Assembly: GCA_029012285.1 (NCBI GenBank)
Contig: JAQXLU010000158.1
Location: 1 to 35,493 of the forward strand
Source: Clostridiales bacterium
GTDB lineage: Bacteria > Bacillota > Clostridia > Christensenellales > Aristaeellaceae
DNA length: 35,493 nucleotides
Direction of reading: 5' to 3'
Shown: positions 1-10,563 of the stretch, piece after piece
Layout of the letters: each line of letters opens with the position of its first letter
Position numbering within the stretch: the first letter of the stretch is position 1
Notes under the pieces: model-generated
Databases searched by the model: none
Told to the model about the DNA's origin: nothing
The model's input: the letters and a program-made list of their open reading frames with translations, nothing else
Made by a program: the position numbers and the translations under genes

Positions 1-589
1 GAATTGGCCAGTATCCTGGGCGATTTCAACCCACGCACCCCGCGAGGGGTGCGACGGCATATTACTCCTCTGGCATATCCACTTGTGTATTTCAACCCAC
101 GCACCCCGCGAGGGGTGCGACAAGCATGACCTATAACACCAACAGCAATAAGGTTATTTCAACCCACGCACCCCGCGAGGGGTGCGACGGAGCTTGGTCA
201 GTTCATTGTCTCCTACATAAATTTCAACCCACGCACCCCGCGAGGGGTGCGACATCATGTACATAAATATCTTTCGTTTTATCAAACATTTCAACCCACG
301 CACCCCGCGAGGGGTGCGACTTCAGGTCTTTTTTCATTTCCGCAAACAGGTCGTAATTTCAACCCACGCACCCCGCGAGGGGTGCGACGCCGAGACGGGG
401 CGGCTAAACACCGGAGAAAAGATTTCAACCCACGCACCCCGCGAGGGGTGCGACCGGAAAGGAGCGACTATGACATTAGGGCAGATATTATTTCAACCCA
501 CGCACCCCGCGAGGGGTGCGACTCAGCACCTCGTCCAGCATGTGGGAATAGCTTTTATTTCAACCCACGCACCCCGCGAGGGGTGCGAC
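1..589 (-). CRISPR. Type I-C CRISPR array, nine repeats, left end outside window
   Basis: Nine identical 33-nt repeats lie at 23-55, 89-121, 156-188, 221-253, 288-320, 356-388, 422-454, 490-522 and 557-589, separated by eight unique spacers of 32-35 nt. Positions 1-22 are part of a further spacer, so the array continues to the left. Each repeat holds a perfect 8-bp stem, CGCACCCC with GGGGTGCG around a GCGA loop. On the minus strand the repeat begins GTCGCACCCC and ends TGGGTTGAAAT, the usual type I-C pattern, so the array is read leftward, in the same direction as the cas genes. The leader is therefore at 590-743, and the spacer at 523-556 is the newest. The repeats show no decay. Spacer targets cannot be determined from the window. 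Confidence 0.98.
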
Positions 590-743
590 TGCAAAAAGCG
601 CCAACACTTCATCGTGAGAATGCAGCACTTTTGCTAAAATTCATCCCAGCGCATCCTCTGCGCGTGCAGCGGATGGCAGAAGTTGACCGCGTTTCCCAGT
701 GCGAAGGGTGGCGCTTTTGATGAGCGCTTCCGTTTCGCACCGG
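590..743 (-). promoter_or_regulatory. CRISPR leader region
   Basis: This 154-nt stretch separates the cas2 stop codon from the first leader-proximal repeat and holds no credible gene, so by position it is the leader that drives the array and receives new spacers. Read on the minus strand it contains a hairpin (GCGCA, five-base loop, TGCGC) followed by TGGGATGAATT at about 641-664, which resembles the stem plus 3' handle of the genuine repeat. No strong promoter hexamers are evident. Assignment rests on position. Confidence 0.7.
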
Positions 744-1034
744 TTACAGCATCAGGACGCCTTCCGGGTCGTAGCCCGGCTTCGCGCCAATATGATCTAC
801 CTTTGTCTGGTAATGATTGCCCAGCTCGTAGAAGCGCAAACTGTCATGCGCCTGATCAATCAACGCGCTCAGCTCGGCCTTCAGCTGTTTGTATTGGGCA
901 GCGTCCAGCAGACACTCAAAGACGGAGTTCTGTACGCGATGACCATGCGCTGTGCACTTCTTCGCAACCTGCCGCAGCCGCCGTTTGCCGCCGCTTTCGG
1001 TGGTGTTGACATCGTAGGTGATCAGAATCAGCAT
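744..1034 (-). CDS. cas2: CRISPR-associated endoribonuclease Cas2
   Basis: The 96-residue protein begins MLILITYDVNT, the typical Cas2 first beta strand with its metal-binding aspartate (Asp8), and ends in the usual short beta strand. Its length matches type I-C Cas2 (about 96-97 residues). An upstream in-frame extension exists, but the family start is the ATG at 1034, 4 nt after the cas1 stop codon. Cas2 forms the central dimer of the Cas1-Cas2 integrase that inserts new spacers at the leader end of the array. It is the last gene of the cas5c-cas2 operon and directly precedes the leader. Confidence 0.96.
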   Translation of the reverse strand: MLILITYDVNTTESGGKRRLRQVAKKCTAHGHRVQNSVFECLLDAAQYKQLKAELSALIDQAHDSLRFYELGNHYQTKVDHIGAKPGYDPEGVLML

Positions 1035-1038
1035 ACGT

Positions 1039-2070
1039 TCACTTCCATAAAAAGGGTGGATATTGATCCAGGTCGCCGCACAGACAACGGGATAGCAGAA
1101 GCGCTTGAACATAGGGGACAAGCCCCCAGTACAGCTTCTCCTTTAAGAACGGATGGGTGATCTCCTCGCGCTTGCGGGCTTGCCATAAGGTGAGCACCTG
1201 CTTGCGGCCTTCATCGTTGAGCAGCACAGCGTTGTTTTCGTGTCGCTTGAAATGCTCCCGGCGGATGGCGTGGGTGTTGATGAGCGTCAGGACAAACCGG
1301 TCCGCAACGGCCGGGCGAAGCTCTTCCATCAGGTCGAGTGCTAGCGATTGGCGTCCCGGGCGATCCCGGTGGAGAAAGCCCACATAGGCGTCCAGCCCGA
1401 CAGCTTCCAGCGCCGATGCGCAATCGTGGGATAGCAGCGTATAAACAAAGGAGAGCAGCGCATTGACCCGGTCGACGGGGGGACGGCGGTTGCGATCCTC
1501 AAAGTGGAAGGCTTCCTTTTGATTGAGGATCAGCTCGTCAAAAACGCCGAAATAGGCGGCGGAGGTCAATCCTTCAAGGCCGCGCAGGCGATCCGGCTCC
1601 GTTTGCTGCAGGATATCCTCCAGCGAATTGGCCAGGCGCTGGCTGACGGCCTTCAGCCGCGGTGCATCCACACGCAGCGCATGGTCGCGCAGGGTGCGCT
1701 CGATGACCCAGCGGCTGTTGTAAACCTTGCCGAAGATGCAGCAGCGGGCGATCCGGCAGCTGTCAGCGGCGTTGTCCGCCATGCGGTACTGCGTCCGGCG
1801 CAGGAGCACATTACCGCGCTCCCAGCCGCAGGTGCGGGCCAGGTAATGGCCGTTCGGGGTCAGAAAGCAGAGGCTCACACCGCGCTCTGCACAGGCGCCC
1901 ATCAGCGCTGGACTGGCCCCCTTGTAGGAAAAGCAGACGATGCTCTCCAGGATCAGCAGCGGGTATTGCCCCTTTCGCTCAGCCCCGCAATGAATGACCA
2001 CGTTCTCGTTTTCCAGCGACAGATAGGCATCCTCGGAGGTGACAAAGAGCGTATTCAGCAGCTTTCTCAC
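1039..2070 (-). CDS. cas1: CRISPR-associated integrase Cas1 (type I-C)
   Basis: The 343-residue protein is the metal-dependent integrase of spacer acquisition. The expected active-site residues are visible: Glu166 in GLEGLTSAAYFG, His234 in GFLHRDRPGR, and the acidic cluster Asp246/Glu249 in LALDLMEELRP. An in-frame extension of 100 residues upstream is only cas4 read out of frame. The start is the GTG at 2070, giving VRKLLNTLFVT, and it overlaps the cas4 stop codon as GTGA, so the two genes are likely translationally coupled. Length and sequence match the type I-C branch. It acts with Cas2 and Cas4. Confidence 0.97.
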   Translation of the reverse strand: MRKLLNTLFVTSEDAYLSLENENVVIHCGAERKGQYPLLILESIVCFSYKGASPALMGACAERGVSLCFLTPNGHYLARTCGWERGNVLLRRTQYRMADNAADSCRIARCCIFGKVYNSRWVIERTLRDHALRVDAPRLKAVSQRLANSLEDILQQTEPDRLRGLEGLTSAAYFGVFDELILNQKEAFHFEDRNRRPPVDRVNALLSFVYTLLSHDCASALEAVGLDAYVGFLHRDRPGRQSLALDLMEELRPAVADRFVLTLINTHAIRREHFKRHENNAVLLNDEGRKQVLTLWQARKREEITHPFLKEKLYWGLVPYVQALLLSRCLCGDLDQYPPFLWK

Positions 2071-2729
2071 GGTGCGTCCTCCTTCTCCTGAAGATGCGCG
2101 CGCAGATACGCCGCCACGCTGGCGCTGCCCTGGGTGCGCGGTAGGCATAGCTCCCGCAGCGAGCAATCGGAACAGCCGCGATGGGCGCGTACCTGCGGCG
2201 TGTGGCCGCGGCCAAACAGGGCGTGCATCTCTGCAAAGGAAGCTTCCACCAGTGCCCGGAGCTCCGGCGTGAAGGCCACGCGGGTGCGCCTTCTGGTCTC
2301 GCCGTAGAACAGGCTGCCCTCTGGAATCTCGCACAGCAGCATTTCCTCCAGACACATGGCCTGAGCGCATAGCTGCGCTTCGTCTGCCTGATGCTGCTTG
2401 GGTGCGCCCTTCTTGTATTCCACCGGATAGACGCGCCAGAGCCCCTCGCGGTTGGATAGCCGAACTCCATGGACATCCCGGTAGAATTCCACCACGTCGC
2501 AGATGCCACTCACATTCATTCGCCGGGACTGCACCCGCAGCCCGCGAACGGTCAGCACATCGCCGCGCAGCTCTGTCTGCTTATCATCATGGGTGCGCGT
2601 GTGGAAAACGGCGCCGTCGGCTGTGTGCTCGTTTTCGGCCCACTGCTGCTCCAGGTGAATCAACGCCCACTGCCTACGGCAGTAGAGAAAGTGCTGGAGG
2701 CCTGAGAGCATGAGCGGTTCGCTGTCCAT
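2067..2729 (-). CDS. cas4: CRISPR-associated exonuclease Cas4
   Basis: The 220-residue protein is a RecB-like nuclease of the Cas4 family. Four cysteines placed to bind an iron-sulfur cluster are present: Cys17 in YCRRQW near the N-terminus and Cys186, Cys189 and Cys195 in the C-terminal CSDCSLRELC motif. The central VEYKKG motif supplies the nuclease lysine. In type I-C systems Cas4 trims prespacers and selects those next to the correct PAM before Cas1-Cas2 integration. The start used is the ATG at 2729, one base after the cas7 stop codon. MLSGLQHF (ATG at 2711) is an alternative. It overlaps cas1 by 4 nt. Confidence 0.95.
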   Translation of the reverse strand: MDSEPLMLSGLQHFLYCRRQWALIHLEQQWAENEHTADGAVFHTRTHDDKQTELRGDVLTVRGLRVQSRRMNVSGICDVVEFYRDVHGVRLSNREGLWRVYPVEYKKGAPKQHQADEAQLCAQAMCLEEMLLCEIPEGSLFYGETRRRTRVAFTPELRALVEASFAEMHALFGRGHTPQVRAHRGCSDCSLRELCLPRTQGSASVAAYLRAHLQEKEDAP

Positions 2730-2730
2730 G

Positions 2731-3639
2731 TCAGATCATCCGGATGCAGCGAACGCCTTCTGGCAGCGCGGCTTCATCCACGGTCACGGCATAGTCGGCG
2801 TAGCAACGAGGTGCATCAGGCTTCACGCGGCTGACCCTCACGGTGTCGAACAGCTTATAGGCTGGGGCTTCACCCAGCTCGCTGTCATGCTTGAACACAA
2901 TCAGCTCCCGAACAGCCATCTTGCCCCGTGCGGCGCTACGATCCTCCTCAAACATGTTGATGATGGCTTTCCACAGGAGCGACAGATCCTCCTCATCAAA
3001 GCCGGTGGTCTTACGGGCAAGGTTGGCGGATACAAAGCCCTCTGCCCGGTACAGGCCATAGGGAACGACGTATTTCCGGCCCATTTCGGTGCCCTTGCGC
3101 TCCGCATCACTCTCGGTGGTAATGGCCACACGGGTGATGGTCACCTCCTGGGGCACGATGGGATCAATCGAGCGGGCAAATCCCAGCTGCACTGGGCCGC
3201 GCACCTGACCGCAGTTCAGCGCGGCCTTGACAAAGGTCGTCATTACAGCGCCGAAGGTGCGCACATCGTAGAAGTTGCGGCACATGAAATCGCGAAGTTT
3301 CCTGTCCAGATCGGGATCATCCTTCTTGGCCTTCTTCGCATCGGTCACGCCGTAGTAGCGATAAGCGCGTTCATCGCTGCGGTTCAGCGGTACGTTGTCC
3401 TTGATGTAAATCTGATAGCCCTTGCCGCCCTCTGGCGCGTCCTCGGCGGGCTCCTCGTCCTTGACCATTTCCACATAGTTGCGGATCTTGCGCTTGAGGC
3501 ACACGTCCGTCACAATGCCTAAACCGGTTTCAGGGTCAATACGCGGCATGTTGCCCGCATCCGGGTCGCCGTTGGGATTGCCGTTCTCCACATCAAACAG
3601 GATCACAAAGTCGTAACGGTTCTTAATCGGTTCACTCAT
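2731..3639 (-). CDS. cas7c: Cascade backbone protein Cas7 (Csd2), type I-C
   Basis: The 302-residue protein is the Csd2/Csh2-type Cas7 that polymerises along the crRNA spacer as the backbone of Cascade. The N-terminal segment YDFVILFDVENGNPNGDPDAGN is the family hallmark. The start at 3639 has an AGGAGG site inside the end of cas8c, and the two genes overlap by 8 nt (3632-3639). Cas7 flips out every sixth crRNA base in type I complexes. This matters here because the predicted regulatory RNA mismatches its target at exactly those positions. Confidence 0.96.
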   Translation of the reverse strand: MSEPIKNRYDFVILFDVENGNPNGDPDAGNMPRIDPETGLGIVTDVCLKRKIRNYVEMVKDEEPAEDAPEGGKGYQIYIKDNVPLNRSDERAYRYYGVTDAKKAKKDDPDLDRKLRDFMCRNFYDVRTFGAVMTTFVKAALNCGQVRGPVQLGFARSIDPIVPQEVTITRVAITTESDAERKGTEMGRKYVVPYGLYRAEGFVSANLARKTTGFDEEDLSLLWKAIINMFEEDRSAARGKMAVRELIVFKHDSELGEAPAYKLFDTVRVSRVKPDAPRCYADYAVTVDEAALPEGVRCIRMI

Positions 3640-4030
3640 CGCGGTTGTCCTCCTTCTTCTGATAGCGCTTCTGCGTCTGATGATAGTAGCCCAGCTGGAA
3701 GATGCCCTGATCGGTCAGGTTCAGCCTGGCGGGGTAGGATTCGTCCATCATGCCCATGAGCGTTTGCAGCTGCTGCTGGAAATGGATGGACAGACCAGTA
3801 TCCAGCTTCTTCAGGTGCGCCTGACTGAGCCGGATCAGGGTGGGAAACACCACCTGGGGCGTGCAGCAGGCAGAATTGAAGTAGCGGTCGCGGATGGTTG
3901 CGTTGATGCCGGGATTCGCGGCTTGCTGCAAGCCTTCCAGCACCGCAAACAGACGGCCCAGCACATAGGGCGTATAGGCAGTGTCCTCGTTCAGTTTCAC
4001 TTGAGCCACCTCCGATATGATTTCTTTCAT
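3632..4030 (-). CDS. cas11c: Probable internal small subunit Cas11c inside cas8c
   Basis: Type I-C systems are known to make the small subunit Cas11c by internal translation from the cas8c message. In this gene the in-frame ATG at 4030, beginning MKEIISEVAQVKLNE, would give a 132-residue protein of about 15 kDa, the size expected for Cas11c. The segment is predicted to be mostly helical, as in Cas11 proteins. The upstream sequence CCCAGGGCAAC gives only a weak ribosome binding site, so the exact start is uncertain. Function follows from the family; the start is inferred. Confidence 0.55.
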   Translation of the reverse strand: MKEIISEVAQVKLNEDTAYTPYVLGRLFAVLEGLQQAANPGINATIRDRYFNSACCTPQVVFPTLIRLSQAHLKKLDTGLSIHFQQQLQTLMGMMDESYPARLNLTDQGIFQLGYYHQTQKRYQKKEDNRDE

Positions 4031-5386
4031 GTTGCCCTGGGACAAGTTTTTGAGGAGATATGCCTTGATGATGGACGCTTTACCCCAGGAGATGACATGT
4101 TCGGACCGGATGCGCAGCTGGGTCTGCTGGTAGAGCGTGGCCGGGTAGGGCGTGTCCGTCATGATGGAGCGCAACACGTCGCCGGTCATTTGGGGGGAAG
4201 CGTTCTTGTTGCTGGCATTGGGGTTCACGGTTTCCCGCAGCATTCCATAGATGGAGAGCGTTTCGTATTTCTCATAGGACGGGCGCTGAAGCTCCAGGCG
4301 CTTCTGATGGGCAATCAGGTGTGTGGCCAGATCGCCGAAGCTGCTTTGCAGGAAAAAGCGCACGGATAACCGGGCTGCGTTGGGCGCCAGTCCCAGAATG
4401 AAGAAGCGGTTATCCGGCTGCATGGGGAAGCGATCCCAGGTGGCCTCCAGCCCTTGACTGAGCCGCTCCAAGGCAAGCTGCAGTGCGGTATCGCGCACCT
4501 CGCTCGTGCCCATGAAGGCCGCGAAGGCGTCCGCGTATACGGTTTCTGCCGTCTCTGCCCAGAACACCATGGTCGTATCGCCGAAGAACAGGGTATGGTC
4601 GCGGTCAGCCAGCAGGTGGTTGAGCGCTGCGCCATAAGCAAATGCGGCCTTTTTACTGACGGGTGCGTTGCGCCCCTGTTCCTCATCGTGACCATAGGAT
4701 TCAAAGGCCCGGGCGTTGAAGCCCACCAGCGATGCACCCACGGACTGAGCCTCCCGCACGCCCTTGATGGAGGGATGCAAGCGAGCAATCTCCGCCACTT
4801 CGCCGGTGACCAGACAGCGCTGCCTCGCGTCATCCTCTGGCGACGCGTCATAGTGGTTCTGCCATGCATGCTGGATGGAGGGAACCTCATGGGCGTAGGT
4901 GTTTCCAAGACGGAACACCAGGTTGGCCGCTGATAGCTCCTTGAGCAGGGGGGCAAGCAGCGGATGCTCTGCGGCCTTCTGGGGCTCCCAATGCTGAAAG
5001 AACGCCAGGATCGCCTTTGCAAAGGGCTCGTCCACATCGTGCAGCAGCTTCTGATGCAGCGCGGCGCAGGCCTGAAAGCACTGAATGGAGCGCTCTGGCT
5101 TGCCCTTGCTGTCGATGCCCAGCATGTAGGCTGCGTTGTCGAAGAGGAAATTGGACTGAATTCCGACGGTGCGCTTTAACGGTTCGGGAACGGTCATGCT
5201 CTTGGGCGTCATGACCTTCTTTTTTCCCTGCTCCTTTTCCTCCCGCACATCCATTACCGCCATCAGCTGGCCTTCCTCATTCAGCCGCAGGGCATAGGAT
5301 ACCTTGACAGATAGCCAGCCGGGGCGTTCCAGCCTTCCCTGTTGCGCCAGCTGGTCGTAATAGCTGGCCAAAGCTTGCAGTATCAT
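3632..5386 (-). CDS. cas8c: Cascade large subunit Cas8c (Csd1)
   Basis: The 584-residue protein is the type I-C large subunit that reads the PAM and helps open target DNA. Its N-terminus MILQALASYYDQLAQQG is characteristic of Csd1. An upstream in-frame extension belongs to cas5c read in another frame. The start at 5386 overlaps the cas5c stop codon as ATGA. It lies third-to-last in the effector order cas5c-cas8c-cas7. The 3' part of the gene also encodes the small subunit from an internal start in known type I-C systems (see the Cas11c entry). Confidence 0.96.
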   Translation of the reverse strand: MILQALASYYDQLAQQGRLERPGWLSVKVSYALRLNEEGQLMAVMDVREEKEQGKKKVMTPKSMTVPEPLKRTVGIQSNFLFDNAAYMLGIDSKGKPERSIQCFQACAALHQKLLHDVDEPFAKAILAFFQHWEPQKAAEHPLLAPLLKELSAANLVFRLGNTYAHEVPSIQHAWQNHYDASPEDDARQRCLVTGEVAEIARLHPSIKGVREAQSVGASLVGFNARAFESYGHDEEQGRNAPVSKKAAFAYGAALNHLLADRDHTLFFGDTTMVFWAETAETVYADAFAAFMGTSEVRDTALQLALERLSQGLEATWDRFPMQPDNRFFILGLAPNAARLSVRFFLQSSFGDLATHLIAHQKRLELQRPSYEKYETLSIYGMLRETVNPNASNKNASPQMTGDVLRSIMTDTPYPATLYQQTQLRIRSEHVISWGKASIIKAYLLKNLSQGNMKEIISEVAQVKLNEDTAYTPYVLGRLFAVLEGLQQAANPGINATIRDRYFNSACCTPQVVFPTLIRLSQAHLKKLDTGLSIHFQQQLQTLMGMMDESYPARLNLTDQGIFQLGYYHQTQKRYQKKEDNRDE

Positions 5387-6030
5387 CGGTACACCTCGCA
5401 ATCCGTCAGGTCGAGGACCCCGTTGGTGAGCTGCGCCCGGAAGAACATGGGTGTGATGTCGTTCGGGTCGCTGTAATCCATGTCGTAGAGCATGAAGCCC
5501 AGGTCGCGGGTTTCGGGGATGGATGGGATCTCGCCACCCTCCCACAGGCGGAAGTGAGCGGTGCATTCCCGCGTGCCCAGATAGGGCTGGGAGTAGCACG
5601 TCCCCTTCCGCAGCCTACGCTTGATGATGTCCTGGAACTTGCCGGGATTATCCCCGGGGGCTGCCTGATCGGTCATGTCGAAATGCGCCTCGATGACGTA
5701 GTGCACATCCTTGAGCATCATGGCGGCACGCTGTTGGATGTCGTTGGATGTGGCGATGTACAGGGGCGCGTTGCTTGTCCCCATCATGGCCGAGCGCGCA
5801 GAGCTGGCCAGTAGCTTGCTTTTGACCTCGTTGCGCCGCATGTTGGTGAACCGGATGGGGTTCAAGACATAGATCCTGCGGATGTGCCATTTCAACCCTG
5901 GGTGATAGTATACACTTTCGATCATGCCACGGGCTGCGCTTGGGGTAGGGACATCGTACGACACACGTTCAACCTTCATTTCAGGCCGTGTAAACAGTGC
6001 GTAGTCTCCCCAGACTTCCATCCGAATCAA
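5383..6030 (-). CDS. cas5c: crRNA-processing Cas5c (Cas5d), TTG start
   Basis: The protein (215 residues from the chosen start) contains MEVWGDYALFTRPEMKVERV and VPTPSAARGMIESVYY, the hallmark of type I-C Cas5. In this subtype Cas5 replaces Cas6: it cuts the pre-crRNA at the base of the repeat hairpin and stays on the 5' handle within Cascade. The start is best placed at the TTG at 6030, because AAAGGAGG lies at 6040-6047, nine bases upstream; the ATG at 6021 is too far from it. A longer frame back to a GTG at 6120 coincides with the predicted transcription start and adds 30 residues unlike Cas5. First gene of the Cascade-adaptation operon. Confidence 0.93.
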   Translation of the reverse strand: MIRMEVWGDYALFTRPEMKVERVSYDVPTPSAARGMIESVYYHPGLKWHIRRIYVLNPIRFTNMRRNEVKSKLLASSARSAMMGTSNAPLYIATSNDIQQRAAMMLKDVHYVIEAHFDMTDQAAPGDNPGKFQDIIKRRLRKGTCYSQPYLGTRECTAHFRLWEGGEIPSIPETRDLGFMLYDMDYSDPNDITPMFFRAQLTNGVLDLTDCEVYR

Positions 6031-6076
6031 GGTCTGATTCCTCCTTTCGTTGTTGAATTCGTTGACATGTATTGTG

Positions 6077-6100
6077 TTCAGCCGCATAGCTGCGGCTGAA
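6077..6100. repeat. Perfect 10-bp inverted repeat in the cas5c leader
   Basis: TTCAGCCGCA at 6077-6086 is the exact reverse complement of TGCGGCTGAA at 6091-6100, with a four-base loop. It lies between the predicted transcription start (about 6120) and the TTG start of cas5c, so it would form a strong hairpin in the mRNA leader. It could equally be a DNA operator for a dimeric protein. It does not resemble the CRISPR repeat stem. Function unknown. Confidence 0.7.
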
Positions 6101-6126
6101 TACCGGGTACGTGTGATCACAAAGAC

Positions 6127-6155
6127 AATATATCACAGGTTCATTGGCTTGTCAA
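6127..6155 (-). promoter_or_regulatory. Promoter of the cas5c-cas8c-cas7-cas4-cas1-cas2 operon
   Basis: On the minus strand a perfect -35 box TTGACA (6155-6150) is followed after exactly 17 bases by TATATT (6132-6127), predicting a transcription start near 6120 and a leader of about 90 nt before the cas5c TTG codon. Without repression this should be a strong sigma-70 type promoter. Its -35 box sits 4 bp from the PAM-like TTT of the site matched by the repeat-like RNA, so a Cascade bound there would be expected to block RNA polymerase. Confidence 0.85.
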
Positions 6156-6159
6156 TTAC

Positions 6160-6179
6160 TTTATGTTATTGGTATGTAA
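6160..6179 (+). promoter_or_regulatory. Predicted Cascade target site for autorepression
   Basis: Positions 6163-6179 match the first 17 nt of the spacer-like segment of the small RNA (6283-6299) at 15 of 17 positions. The two mismatches are at positions 6 and 12, and pairing ends at position 18. Type I Cascade flips out every sixth crRNA base, so all bases that can pair do pair. The three bases on the PAM side (6160-6162) are TTT; the canonical type I-C PAM is TTC, so this would be a suboptimal PAM. The site is immediately upstream of the cas5c -35 box. Seed-length pairing like this is known to allow binding without target destruction. Confidence 0.75.
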
Positions 6180-6220
6180 AAATTTATGATTAACAATGTG
6201 CATGTGGCAAGAATCACCCC

Positions 6221-6249
6221 TTGGATTCTCCACGAACATATGCTATAAT
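6221..6249 (+). promoter_or_regulatory. Promoter of the CRISPR-repeat-like small RNA
   Basis: On the plus strand TTGGAT (6221-6226) and a perfect TATAAT (6244-6249) are separated by exactly 17 bases. The start site predicted about 7 nt after the -10 box is at 6256, the first base of the repeat-like element. There is no ribosome binding site or reading frame after it, so the transcript should be non-coding. It faces away from the cas5c operon and toward the 3' end of cas3. Confidence 0.85.
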
Positions 6250-6255
6250 ACTCAG

Positions 6256-6341
6256 GTCGGACGAGTGTCCGTGGGTTGAAACATGTTGTTGGTCTGTAAG
6301 CCAAGCAGGGGACAGGAGGCGCGCGCCGCTTCCTGTCCTTT
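6256..6341 (+). ncRNA. CRISPR-repeat-like regulatory RNA (CreR-like)
   Basis: A single repeat-like element at 6256-6282 begins GTCG and ends CGTGGGTTGAAAC. It matches the array repeat in transcript orientation at both ends, including 10 of the last 11 bases that form the crRNA 5' handle. Its hairpin is shortened to CGGAC-GAGT-GTCCG, so it is 27 nt instead of 33 nt. A spacer-like segment starts at 6283 and runs into a hairpin terminator at 6308-6341 instead of a second repeat. The first 17 nt of the spacer-like part match DNA at the cas5c promoter except at positions 6 and 12. Small RNAs of this design that make Cascade repress cas promoters (CreR) or toxin promoters (CreA of CreTA) are known from other subtypes. 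The repeat, promoter and target match are directly visible; repression is inferred. Confidence 0.82.
6308..6341 (+). terminator. Terminator hairpin of the small RNA
   Basis: GGACAGGA (6310-6317) pairs with TCCTGTCC (6331-6338), and pairing continues inward to a 12-bp stem with a five-base loop, followed by TTT at 6339-6341. The T tract is short, so termination may be incomplete. The hairpin begins about 27 nt into the spacer-like segment, standing where a second repeat would be in a normal array, and lies between convergent transcripts from the small RNA and cas3. Confidence 0.65.
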
Positions 6342-6364
6342 GCTGTCAGGCATAATGCGGGGCA

Positions 6365-8476
6365 TCAGACCATGAACGCCATCCCGGCGTCACTGAGCAG
6401 CAGCAGACCCCGCTGGTGGTCGTAGCAGGAGGGGTCAGCCAATATCCAGTAGCCATCCTGCGTCCTTTCCAGCCGGCCGGCGCTGTACAGCTTGGAGGCA
6501 TCGCCTTGATATAGGGTGAGGCTATCCTGCTGGAGTCTCCGCAGCGTCCCCTTTGTGTACCAGCCTCCGCGCAGGGCGTCCAGCTCTTTGGCGTTATCAT
6601 CCGTGGGCAGATACAGGGTGACGGTGTCCTGATCGGCGATCAGGCGGAATCTGTCGGCCACCTCCCTGAACTGATAGCCCTCGCAGCACTTTATGATCTC
6701 CCTCTTGTCGATGGCATCGCCCTTTGTTTTCAGCAGCGCTTCAAAGTAGGAATGAATGGTGTCCAGCGCGTCCATGGCGCGTTCGCCCTCGATCGCCTGC
6801 TGGAAGGCGTCGGTTTGCTGGCGGAAGTTCACCGCGCCAGCGCCTTGCAGACGGAACACATGCACAATGCTGTCCTCCATGGGGCGCTTTCCTTCGCGGT
6901 TGCAGCGGCCTCCGGCCTGCAGGATTGCGTCCAAACCGGCTTCCTGACGCCACACGGTGGGGAAGTCCAGATCAACGCCGGCCTCGATCAGGCTGGTGGA
7001 CACCACATGGCAGGGCAGATTGTCCGCCAGGCGGCTGCGAATGTTGGCAATCGCTTTGCGCCTGTCCGTCGGCGTCATCCAGGTGGACAGGTGGAAACGG
7101 CTTTGGCAGGGCAGTGCGTCATAGAGCTGCTGGGCCAGCTTGCGGGAATTGACGATGCATAGCCCCTGACGCTCCGACAACAGACCGGAGAGCAGCGCCT
7201 CCCGCGTCAGCGTCCCCTCCATGCGGTAGGTCGTGCGGCGGAAAAAGCGGTAGAGTGTATCGCGGTCGCGCATGATCTCCCGGACGGGCTGTTCTGGCAG
7301 GTATTCGCCAAACAGGGGATTGAGCGCAGGCTGCGTGGCGGTGCAGAGGACGGCGGTCACCCGATAATGCTTCACCAGCTCCGCGATGGCATACACGCAG
7401 GGGCGCAGGAAATCCAGCGGTATCATCTGTGCTTCATCAAAGATGATAACGCTGTTTGCGATGCTGTGGAGCTTGCGGCACTTGCTGGTTCGGGCAGCGA
7501 ACAGGGATTCAAAGAACTGCACGGCTGTGGTCACAACCACGGGGGCGTCCCAGTTCTCGGTGGCAAGGCGCTTTCGCTGGTTGGCAGCGTTCAGCTCCTC
7601 ATCCTCGCCATCGTCCCCATACTCCACGCCGCTGTGATGCTCCAGTACGTTCTCACTGCCCAGCATTTCGGCAAACTTTGCAGCGTTCTGCTCGATGATG
7701 CTCGTGTAGGGGATCACATAGATCACCCGGCTGCAGCCATGCTTCACCGCATGCCGGAGCGCAAACATCATCGAGGATACGGTCTTGCCGCCGCCAGTCG
7801 GAACAGTCAGGGTATACAGGCCTGGCTCGCCGTCCCCCGCCTCGGCGCAGTTGTCCAGGATGGCGCAGCGCTGGACATTGATGGGCTTCTCCGGCGGATA
7901 CCACCCCTGTACATACTTTTGCAGTCGCGATAGCAGAACGGACATTGGCTCGCTATTGGTATTCCGGGTTTGCTGCTGATTCATGAAGGCTTCGGTGTCC
8001 AGAAAATCGGCATCCACCAGGCAGGAATAGAGCATCCGCGCGTAAAAGCTGCCTGTCAGTGGATCGCGCTCTGCCCATTGCGGCGCGAGGTAGCCTGCCT
8101 TCGGGCTGATTTCCCGCTGAAAAGCGGAGTAGTCCTGTGGCTTGTAGCGGAACTTTCCATCCAGCAGCTTCTCTTTGTCCATCAGTCCGCCGTGGTGTGC
8201 GGCGATGGCGAACATGCCAGCAATATCCCGCAGCCGACTGGCCTCCTGCGTACCGGCGGAGGTATGGTTAATCTTGCTGACATGCTCGGGGTCCTGCATG
8301 CGGCGTTGTACATCCGGCGCGTATTTGCCAATGTCGTGCAGCAGTCCGGTGCGGTATGCGTGCTCAGCCGCGCCAAAGGCCCTGCCAAAGCTTGCGGCGA
8401 GCCTTGCCGTTCCCTCCAGGTGGTTCAGGACGGACTGGGTTCTCCCGTCCTCTGTCTTGTGCGCAATGTATGCCAT
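6365..8476 (-). CDS. cas3: CRISPR-associated helicase-nuclease Cas3 (type I-C)
   Basis: The 703-residue protein has an N-terminal HD nuclease domain (His47-Asp48 in GLLHDIGKYAPD, then IAAHHGG) and a superfamily 2 helicase domain with PTGGGKT as Walker A, DEAQ as the DExx box, TATQPAL as motif III and a C-terminal helicase lobe. It is recruited by target-bound Cascade to nick and degrade invading DNA. The start is the ATG at 8476 (MAYIAHKTEDG), 8 nt after GGAAAGGA; a TTG 18 nt upstream lies in the same frame but has no ribosome binding site. Unlike many type I-C loci, cas3 is separated from cas5c by 334 bp and has its own strong promoter. Confidence 0.97.
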   Translation of the reverse strand: MAYIAHKTEDGRTQSVLNHLEGTARLAASFGRAFGAAEHAYRTGLLHDIGKYAPDVQRRMQDPEHVSKINHTSAGTQEASRLRDIAGMFAIAAHHGGLMDKEKLLDGKFRYKPQDYSAFQREISPKAGYLAPQWAERDPLTGSFYARMLYSCLVDADFLDTEAFMNQQQTRNTNSEPMSVLLSRLQKYVQGWYPPEKPINVQRCAILDNCAEAGDGEPGLYTLTVPTGGGKTVSSMMFALRHAVKHGCSRVIYVIPYTSIIEQNAAKFAEMLGSENVLEHHSGVEYGDDGEDEELNAANQRKRLATENWDAPVVVTTAVQFFESLFAARTSKCRKLHSIANSVIIFDEAQMIPLDFLRPCVYAIAELVKHYRVTAVLCTATQPALNPLFGEYLPEQPVREIMRDRDTLYRFFRRTTYRMEGTLTREALLSGLLSERQGLCIVNSRKLAQQLYDALPCQSRFHLSTWMTPTDRRKAIANIRSRLADNLPCHVVSTSLIEAGVDLDFPTVWRQEAGLDAILQAGGRCNREGKRPMEDSIVHVFRLQGAGAVNFRQQTDAFQQAIEGERAMDALDTIHSYFEALLKTKGDAIDKREIIKCCEGYQFREVADRFRLIADQDTVTLYLPTDDNAKELDALRGGWYTKGTLRRLQQDSLTLYQGDASKLYSAGRLERTQDGYWILADPSCYDHQRGLLLLSDAGMAFMV

Positions 8477-8561
8477 GACAGGATTCCTTTCCAAACCATG
8501 TGCGGTATATAAAATGACGGTTATGCATGCATTCTGTCAGTCGCTGTATGCTTCTGTAAGT

Positions 8562-8590
8562 ATTATACCGTTGCATACAATTCCTGTCAA
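8562..8590 (-). promoter_or_regulatory. Promoter of cas3
   Basis: On the minus strand a perfect TTGACA (8590-8585) and a perfect TATAAT (8567-8562) are spaced by exactly 17 bases, about 85 nt upstream of the cas3 start. This is the strongest promoter sequence in the window. No match to the spacer-like segment of the small RNA was found around it, so cas3 appears not to be under the same control. Confidence 0.85.
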
Positions 8591-8618
8591 GAAGACGCAT
8601 ATACAATCATGCCCATAC

Positions 8619-8668
8619 AAAAAGGGGCTATGAAAGAATGCGCCCGCATCCTTTCACAGCCCTTATCA
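8619..8668 (-). terminator. Rho-independent terminator after the ABC exporter
   Basis: On the minus strand an imperfect stem of about 18 bp (GGGCTGTGAAAGGATGCG pairing with the inverse copy at 8624-8642) is followed by TTTTT at 8623-8619. It ends the exporter operon just upstream of the cas3 promoter. Confidence 0.85.
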
Positions 8669-8670
8669 AA

Positions 8671-10563
8671 TCAGGCCAGCTGCAGCTGGTATAGCTTCTT
8701 GTAGATGCCGTCCTGCTCCAGCAGCTCCTGGTGCGTTCCGGATTCGCGGATCCGCCCGTGGTGCATCACAATAATCCGGTCGCAATGCTGAATGGTGGAC
8801 AGACGATGCGCCACCATGATCGACGTGCGCCCCTCCATCAGCGTCTTCACCGCGTCCTGAATCCACTGCTCTGTCTCCGTGTCGATGTTGGCAGTGGCCT
8901 CATCCAGGATGAGGATGGTCGGGTCATGGGCCAGCGTCCTGGCAAAGGACAGCAGCTGGCGCTGACCGGCAGAGAAGGTCGCGCCGCGTTCGGTCACCCG
9001 CTCGTCATACTGGTGGGGCAGCCGCTCGATGAACCGGCTTGCGTTGGTGTTGTGGGCGGCCTCCCGAATGGCCGCGTCGGAAATCTCCTCGTCCCGCAGG
9101 CGGATGTTGTGCTTCACATCCCCGGTGAAGATGAACACATCCTGCTGCACCTGGCCGATGGCGGCGCGGATCTGCTCCCGGCTCATGTCGCGCACGTCCA
9201 CACCGTCGATGCGGATGGCGCCCTTCTGAATGTCGTAATAGCGCCCGATCAGGTTCAAGATGGAGGACTTGCCCGCGCCCGTCGCGCCGACGAAGGCCAC
9301 CTTCTGCCCGGGCTCAATCACGAAGGATACATCCCGCAGCACCCAGTTTTCGTTGCCGGCGTTCTCCGGTGTGGGGGTCTTGCCGTCCTTGGTTTCGTAG
9401 GCAAACCAGACGTGGTCGAACTCGATCCGGCCGCGAATCTCCTTCGGGCGGACGGGGTTGTCCTTCTCCTTGACGATGGGCTCCACGTCCATCAGGGTGA
9501 AGATCTTCTCCGCCGAGGCGATGGCGCTTTGCAGCGTGGTGAACATTTCCGCCAGCTCCTGGATGGGCTGGAAGAGCTGGCTGATATACTGGGTGAACAT
9601 GTACAGCGTGCCGATGGAGATGGCGCCGGTGAGCACCTGGGAGGAGCCGCCGCCCAGGATGATGGCGGTGGCCACGATGGAGGCCAAGTAGATCAGCGGG
9701 CGGAAGATGCCAAAGATCATCATCTCGCGGAAGCCTGCCTTGTATAGCGCCAGGTTCTTTTCATCAAATTCGTCGCACTTTTCCTTTTCCCGGTGGAAAA
9801 TCTGAATCACCCGCATGCCGGATAAATGCTCGGACAGGAAGGTGTTCAGCGCGGTGACGCGGGTTTTGACCACCTGATAGCACCTCCGGGACAAGCGGCG
9901 GAAGATGAACGTCAGCACCGCCACCACCGGAACCATCACCAGGGAGAGCAAGGCCATCTTCATGTCCAGCATCAGCATGACCACAATCAGGCCGACCACC
10001 TTGATCACGTTGCGGAATAGTCGCACGATGATGTTGGAGTACAATTCGTTGATGGCCTCGGTATCGTTGGTGATGCGGGTGACGATGCGGCCCACCGGGG
10101 TGGTGTCGAAGAAACGCATGCTCAGGCGCTGCACGTGGGCCATCAGCTCCATGCGCAGCGTGTAGACGATCTTCTGTCCCATCTCCTGGATCATCAGGTA
10201 TTGCATGCGGTTGCACACAAAGGCGACGAGCATCACCCCGATGTATAGGGCGGCGGTTTTCAATATACCCTGCCAGCGCTCGTCGGGGGTGAGGGTTGCG
10301 GCGGCGGAGAGCTCCTCCTGGGTCAGATCGGTATCGGAGGACACCATGCCGTCCTCCAGGGTGAGGATGTATTTGTCGATGGCGTTGCCGATGAGCATGG
10401 GCCGGTAGAGGTCAAGGGCGGTGAGGATGGCGACCAGCACCAGGCAGAGCAGCACCGTCCGGATATAGGGCTTCAAATACGCCATCAGCCGCAGGAAGGC
10501 GTTGCCCTTGTATTGCAGATCGTTGCTTTCCTTGTCCTTCAGGCCGCGGACGAATTCAGACAT
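8671..10563 (-). CDS. ABC exporter subunit, YheH-like
   Basis: The 630-residue protein is a half-transporter with six predicted membrane helices fused to an ATPase domain. Walker A is GATGAGKSS and Walker B is ILILDEAT with the catalytic Glu, whereas the signature is FSAGQ instead of LSGGQ. The start is the ATG at 10563 after AGGAGG. It overlaps the stop codon of the preceding gene by one base, so the two subunits are co-translated. The pair matches the heterodimeric multidrug exporters such as YheI-YheH and LmrCD, in which this type of subunit supplies the working Walker B of the competent site. The exported substrate cannot be named. Confidence 0.92.
   Translation of the reverse strand: MSEFVRGLKDKESNDLQYKGNAFLRLMAYLKPYIRTVLLCLVLVAILTALDLYRPMLIGNAIDKYILTLEDGMVSSDTDLTQEELSAAATLTPDERWQGILKTAALYIGVMLVAFVCNRMQYLMIQEMGQKIVYTLRMELMAHVQRLSMRFFDTTPVGRIVTRITNDTEAINELYSNIIVRLFRNVIKVVGLIVVMLMLDMKMALLSLVMVPVVAVLTFIFRRLSRRCYQVVKTRVTALNTFLSEHLSGMRVIQIFHREKEKCDEFDEKNLALYKAGFREMMIFGIFRPLIYLASIVATAIILGGGSSQVLTGAISIGTLYMFTQYISQLFQPIQELAEMFTTLQSAIASAEKIFTLMDVEPIVKEKDNPVRPKEIRGRIEFDHVWFAYETKDGKTPTPENAGNENWVLRDVSFVIEPGQKVAFVGATGAGKSSILNLIGRYYDIQKGAIRIDGVDVRDMSREQIRAAIGQVQQDVFIFTGDVKHNIRLRDEEISDAAIREAAHNTNASRFIERLPHQYDERVTERGATFSAGQRQLLSFARTLAHDPTILILDEATANIDTETEQWIQDAVKTLMEGRTSIMVAHRLSTIQHCDRIIVMHHGRIRESGTHQELLEQDGIYKKLYQLQLA

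Follow-up and report, generated by a model that had tools for sequence, protein, structure and literature searches.

A solitary shortened CRISPR repeat with a cas promoter-matching guide in type I-C loci of Clostridia: a candidate CreR-type RNA

Analysis of a 35,493-nt contig of a Clostridiales bacterium (contig JAQXLU010000158.1 of assembly GCA_029012285.1, hereafter the window) revealed a small CRISPR-like element between the cas3 and cas5c genes of a type I-C locus. It is composed of a solitary shortened repeat, a guide segment and a closing hairpin, and the beginning of the guide fits the DNA next to the predicted promoter of the cas5c operon. Judging from the sequence of this locus and its relatives, we consider it very probable (roughly 0.9) that the element would be transcribed into a CreR-type RNA, which would be loaded into the I-C Cascade and direct the repression of Cascade's own cas operon.

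The window contains cas3, cas5c, cas8c, cas7, cas4, cas1 and cas2, in this order, together with a CRISPR array, the composition of a type I-C locus (Table 1). The cas5c gene starts with TTG, and AAAGGAGG is located at 6040-6047. A consensus scan identified a promoter facing cas5c, in which 11 of the 12 bases of the two boxes agree with the consensus.

Table 1. Positions of the small element, its target and the neighbouring features in the window.
Feature	Position	Strand	Remarks
CRISPR array	23-589	-	9 repeats; source of the canonical repeat
csd1/cas8c, cas7, cas4, cas1, cas2	744-5599	-	Pfam; remaining genes of the operon
Cas5c	5383-6030	-	PF09704, E 8.8e-37; first gene of the putatively repressed operon
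cas5c operon promoter (predicted)	6127-6155	-	-35 TTGACA 6150-6155, 17 nt, -10 TATATT 6127-6132
Target	6160-6179	+	PAM TTT 6160-6162, protospacer 6163-6179; 15/17 matched
Small-RNA promoter (predicted)	6221-6249	+	TTGGAT 6221-6226, 17 nt, TATAAT 6244-6249 preceded by TGC
Solitary shortened CRISPR repeat	6256-6282	+	stem-loop CGGAC-GAGT-GTCCG (5 bp), 11-nt handle 6272-6282
Guide	6283-6304	+	22 nt; fit to the cas5c promoter region over the first 17 nt (6283-6299)
3' hairpin	6305-6343	+	17 bp; closes the RNA; putative terminator and/or 3' protection; poor T-tract
Cas3	6365-8494	-	Pfam; upstream of the targeted promoter, convergent with the small RNA

Two features of the cas5c leader were recorded on the - strand: a 10-bp inverted repeat with a 4-nt loop at 6077-6100, with no T-run after it, and a reading frame of 13 codons at 6027-6068, found by eye, the stop of which overlaps the cas5c start (TTGA) and which may be there by chance. 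Elsewhere in the same genome, a second array stretch with the CRISPR repeat of the window array is located at C95:14493-14925; since the window array lies at the end of its contig, the two may be one array split by the assembly. A further Cas5-like protein, only distantly similar (46% over about 60 aa), is encoded at C91:52981-53493 and possibly belongs to another type I system.

The sequence-only reading had described a consensus promoter that starts a short RNA made of a repeat-like element, a spacer-like segment and a terminator. The element, the guide and the hairpin are present as described; the promoter and the terminator fit the description less well. The predicted promoter, with an RNA start at about 6256, has a perfect extended -10 box and a -35 box with only 3 of 6 consensus bases, for which reason the consensus scan did not list it. 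Only 2 T residues are found in the 8 bases following the hairpin and no terminator-like site was listed by the scan at this position, which makes a terminator role of the window copy uncertain. The 90-nt RNA was predicted to fold with -44.1 kcal/mol (z -4.49).

The repeat-like element lies in the cas locus, outside any array. Its handle is identical to that of the window's own array repeat in 10 of 11 bases, while the preceding 21 bases agree in only 6; in sequence terms, the long stem of the repeat is replaced by a 5-bp stem that has the same end point. A search of positions 1-9000 against Rfam gave no match at the gathering threshold.

That the start of the spacer-like segment matches DNA beside the -35 box of the cas5c promoter was borne out: 15 of the first 17 guide bases fit the target, and positions 6 and 12 alone are mismatched. 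Target and -35 box are separate: the site lies on the upstream side of the box, and its PAM starts 5 bases past it (4 bases in between). The guide is partly complementary to the promoter region of the cas operon next to a valid PAM, with pairing confined to the PAM-near part and positions 6 and 12 free. The second-best match of the 17-nt guide in the window reached 12/17. In the whole assembly (2.80 Mb, 169 contigs), a pattern of TTN plus the seed, leaving positions 6 and 12 open, had one exact site, that at 6160-6179, and one site with a single mismatch; the reversed control pattern had none on one strand and one on the other.

The accessible text of the literature agrees with this geometry. 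Positions 6 and 12, which type I Cascade does not read, can be mutated without effect in a CreA, contrary to the other ten of the first twelve (PMC8501985). TTC is given as the canonical I-C PAM, with TTT also among the I-C PAMs (PMC8482600), and I-C Cascade lacking Cas3 is described as repressing a promoter at a TTC site, the PAMs named being TTC and TTT (PMC10865793).

In order to compare the cas3-cas5c gap among relatives, loci were collected through Cas5c searches of overlapping genome sets: 18 genomes at the genus level (7 with a match), 300 at the family level (58), 396 at the order level (26 at E 1e-40) and 398 at the phylum level (72 at E 1e-40). From each search up to 30 loci entered the analysis, and from the genome_contigs collection the best 80 of at least 590 relatives were kept. 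Jointly, 130 loci were analyzed; 29 loci of the phylum search were treated separately. Only the handle was used to search for elements, in the gap between cas3 and cas5c, within 600 nt of cas5c and on the strand that does not carry the cas operon. This yielded 46 handles in the 130 I-C loci, which similarity reduced to 39 distinct guides; some loci represent one genome present in two collections. Not counted were L011-L021 (distant or partial Cas5 matches), L130 (a second copy of the window), the first handle of L077, seven minus-strand handles (one in L028, one in L108 and five from a real array in L114), and L023, whose handle has 2 off-consensus bases and whose guide scored 15.

The guides covary with the promoter region. 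When plain identity was counted over 17 nt, with every position included and no PAM required, at least 14 bases matched in the guide's own region for 30 of the 39 distinct guides, compared with 6 of the 1482 swapped pairings; the co-variation of spacer-like segment and promoter for which this comparison had been suggested was thereby found. The triplet preceding the site, although not asked for, was TTC in 26 of the 30, TTT in 3 and TTA in 1. The 30 guides have 65 mismatches, 40 of which are at positions 6 (17) and 12 (23). The others are at positions 17 (9), 7 (5), 13 (4), 16 (3), 14 (2), 1 (1) and 8 (1), and none at any other position.

Matches were also scored with +1 for a match and -2 for a mismatch, skipping positions 6, 12, 18 and 24; the handle motif and this score were fixed after the first loci had been seen. 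The guide's own region reached a score of 11 in 33/39 guides and of 9 in 36/39, compared with 6/1482 and 26/1482 for swapped pairings and with 2/39 and 7/39 for the own regions read backwards. Skipping by itself pushes mismatches to the skipped positions, and for this reason the test was repeated by plain identity, as above, and with the other phases: phase 6 gave 33/39 guides at score 11, the other five phases 6 to 13, and scoring without skipping 20. Among the 33 guides, position 17 was mismatched in 13 and positions 18-24 in 20-28, so that the mismatch profile has the pattern of a type I R-loop ending at about 16-17 nt.

All 32 distinct guides preceded by a consensus-fitting handle scored at least 9. 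The three guides with no match (L081, L084 and L146) each follow a handle with one off-consensus base, and three more (L092, L096 and L126) had low scores of 9-10. The site with TTA instead of TTC or TTT belongs to L073 and yet reached a score of 15. Coordinated changes were seen between the close relatives L031 and L032, where guide and target change jointly at position 10, between L034 and L035, likewise close relatives (joint change at position 10, with position 7 differing in the target only) and between L091 and L093 (joint changes at 4 and 8, single changes at 13 in the guide and 15 in the target). Most other pairs compared in this way are not close relatives and merely restate the matches.

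An element of this kind could be left over from a CRISPR mini-array whose spacer was self-derived, and have no function today. The three guides mentioned above, with off-consensus handles and no match, would suit such decay, and L077 suggests descent from an array: its repeat is near full length (19 of the 21 bases before the handle agree with the array repeat), and a second repeat, with a spacer of its own that has no match, lies 67 nt upstream. Continuing selection is indicated instead by the 39 distinct guides of one architecture with 30-33 of them matched, by the coordinated substitutions and by the near absence of mismatches at positions 1-5 and 9-11. We regard a functionless remnant as very improbable. 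L075 and L077 were also considered as two-repeat mini-arrays and rejected as such, the GTCGC that follows the guide being part of the closing hairpin.

A decoy that ties up Cascade, as the phage Racr RNAs do, would need no guide match at all, which leaves the match, the PAM and the covariation unexplained. A phage I-C Racr with a solitary repeat does inhibit a I-C system, according to the available text of PMC10651486; the exact handle-plus-guide pattern of the window was not found in viral_contigs. A decoy function appears to us extremely improbable.

The architecture of the predicted RNA recurs in the relatives. In 38 of the 46 elements, the base before the 11-nt handle is the last base of a stem of 4 bp or more, G-U pairs included, a count that has no shuffled control. 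On visual inspection, a 5-bp stem with a loop of 9 nt, beyond the limits of the script, was also seen in L039, in its copy L072 and in L089. An array was available in the locus of 21 elements: the handle agreed with the array repeat in 9-11 of 11 bases, partly by construction since similar motifs were sought, and the 21 bases before it agreed in 3-9 positions in 19 of the elements, the exceptions being L077 and L081 (15). The hairpin begins 16-32 nt after the guide start in 40/46 elements (median 24 over the 42 found, again with no shuffled control); none was found in L048, L091, L103 and L110, in L028 it begins at 12, and in L046 there is only a short one, at 69. At least 4 T residues follow within the next 8 bases in 30/46 elements. 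A permissive scan, with no shuffled control, placed a promoter-like pair ahead of 41 of the 43 matched elements of the family.

The site was compared with the best predicted cas5c promoter for the 33 matched guides. It lies within 15 nt of the promoter in 26/33 and within 25 nt in 30/33, where placing sites at random in that gap would give 56% and 67%; proximity is only moderately above random placement and is helpful rather than decisive. The position relative to the promoter bears on another reading, in which the bound Cascade activates transcription or shifts the start site. The site is upstream of the -35 box in 19 of the 33 distinct guides, as in the window, which would suit activation; it is downstream of the -10 box in 11 and touches or overlaps the core in 3, where a bound complex should block transcription. 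Activation or a shifted start is, in our judgement, highly unlikely.

We propose the following model for repression by the CreR-type RNA. The promoter ahead of the element would start a short RNA at about 6256. Cas5c would recognize its stem-loop and leave an 11-nt 5' handle; type I-C systems, as far as we know, have no Cas6. In type I-C Cas5 is the crRNA-processing nuclease, as stated in the available part of PMC10651486. The RNA would then assemble with Cas7 and Cas8c into Cascade, and the guide would bring the complex to the target directly upstream of the cas5c -35 box. With pairing ending after about 16-17 nt and the guide shortened by the hairpin, RNA polymerase would be blocked and the full R-loop required for attack by Cas3 would not form. 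A guide this short ahead of the hairpin points to a Cascade of reduced length. The outcome would be a negative feedback on cas5c-cas8c-cas7-cas4-cas1-cas2, relaxing when true crRNAs or inhibitors occupy Cascade; cas3, being upstream of the targeted promoter, would escape this control. Loading, repression and release are modelled on CreR RNAs of other subtypes, as outlined in the accessible text of PMC12737573. The earlier proposal that a solitary repeat RNA represses the cas operon is supported by the covariation of guide and target, with repression itself a prediction from sequence. Counting against a CreR, one-repeat forms of CreA are described as producing less RNA and repressing more weakly than those with two repeats (PMC8501985, in the text available).

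The distribution of the element among I-C loci depends on the gap. An element with a match was found in 0/43 loci with a cas3-cas5c gap below 150 nt, in 0/7 at 150-200 nt, in 22/33 at 200-300 nt, in 21/28 at 300-600 nt and in 0/10 above 600 nt, gap size being missing for 9 loci. L023 and, from the wider scans described below, L062, L104, L102 and L129 come in addition to these counts. One of the 29 phylum-search loci has the element (L154). The named carriers include Eubacterium barkeri VPI 5359 (L103, score 15), Faecalibacterium longum (L126, 10), Hydrogenoanaerobacterium saccharovorans (L092, 9) and Lachnoclostridium sp. An196 (L129, 12). When mapped on a tree of 121 Cas5c rows, the presence of the element in 44 carriers requires 32 changes, 23 of them forced by well supported branches; shuffling gave a mean of 36.0 changes, and 45 of 500 shuffles were as low as 32. 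This scattered presence implies that the element is dispensable and is gained and lost fast. A close relative by Cas5c (83% identical; L022/L050) has a 363-nt gap in which neither the element nor a match was found.

A whole-locus scan of the 86 loci counted as lacking the element gave TTC matches in L062 and L104; a CGC match in L064 was taken as chance. Both L062 and L104 have a solitary repeat in the gap, with a guide matching a TTC site that lies about 25 nt ahead of cas5c, and both have an antitoxin gene in the gap, HicB-like in L062 and RelB in L104. In L066, a frame of 372 aa, transposase-like by eye, is located in a 1.6-kb gap; no element was detected there. A looser scan of 15 loci, allowing up to 3 off-consensus bases in the handle and requiring TTN, yielded in addition L102 and L129 with a score of 12 and L121 and L124 with a score of 10.

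Five Lachnospiraceae I-C loci (L102, L111, L116, L124 and L129) have two extra reading frames before cas5c. In the L102 copy, these code for a DUF3990 protein, by Pfam, and a 146-aa protein with no Pfam match; the second frame ends 31-36 nt before cas5c in L102, L129 and L124. We take DUF3990 to be a possible toxin. The repeat-like elements of L102 and L129 have guides that match a TTC site ahead of the DUF3990 gene.

These two loci, together with the same build of CreA (PMC8501985, in the text available), are what would favour a toxin module. The element would then be the CreA half of a CreTA or CrePA pair, its guide repressing a toxin gene or RNA, and loss of Cascade would kill or arrest the cell. 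In the window, though, cas5c is the only frame of at least 80 aa after the targeted promoter, and the promoter faces it; even in L102 and L129, where 36 nt separate the end of the extra genes from cas5c, the same promoter may still drive cas5c. A toxin module is a decidedly unlikely account of the element. A variant is possible in which the cas5c leader contains a tiny toxin RNA.

For the CreR-type RNA, a broader picture can be offered tentatively, and we would not count on it: a brake of clostridial I-C systems in which the architecture is fixed while guide and target are repeatedly rewritten, the guide of about 24 nt (median) would form a short Cascade that binds and does not engage Cas3, and the operon controlled would in some Lachnospiraceae be headed by DUF3990. 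If this were true, loss or inhibition of Cascade in those Lachnospiraceae would free the DUF3990 gene pair together with cas expression. The CreR reading as such would extend RNA-guided self-repression of CRISPR effectors to type I-C. The roughly 30 natural guide-target pairs could reveal, for living lineages, the positions read by I-C Cascade and how short a match evolution settles on, and for tools based on native I-C systems, removal of the element or flooding with crRNA should alter cas expression.

Among known systems, the element most resembles CreR as reviews present it from Liu et al. 2023, in the parts available: a crRNA-like RNA with partial complementarity to a cas promoter and an autorepression model. 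It differs in its I-C context, its one strongly shortened repeat, its 22-nt guide and its closing hairpin. CreR autorepression is named for I-B, I-E and V-A in the accessible text of PMC13131331, and that of PMC12737573 speaks of "Type I and Type V-A" with no subtypes given. In literature listings on CreR, autoregulation, standalone repeats and type I-C, and in the texts cited here as far as available, we found no report of a CreR-type RNA in I-C. Shmakov et al. 2023 reportedly described repeats standing alone in cas loci, mostly of type I, whose spacers are in part complementary to cas promoters. I-C entries in that set are possible, in which case the window element would join a set already reported.

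CreA of CreTA shares the TTC PAM, the pairing at positions 1-5 and 7-11 with 6 and 12 free, and, in Haloarcula hispanica, a form with one repeat plus terminator (available text of PMC8501985); CreA, however, represses a toxin RNA, whereas the window target flanks a cas operon promoter. RacrIC1 is likewise a solitary I-C repeat made as RNA, that of the window being predicted, but it is a phage-borne inhibitor, and a promoter-matching guide is not mentioned in the accessible portion of its description (PMC10651486). The element studied here is located inside the cas locus, as in the relatives, and not on a phage, plasmid or prophage. A natural single-guide RNA of Cas9 is said, from the work of Workman and colleagues in 2021, to provide RNA-guided repression of a cas promoter by its own effector in type II. 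The likeness would be that the system's own effector represses the cas promoter; the difference is that the effector there is Cas9 of type II and would here be the I-C Cascade.
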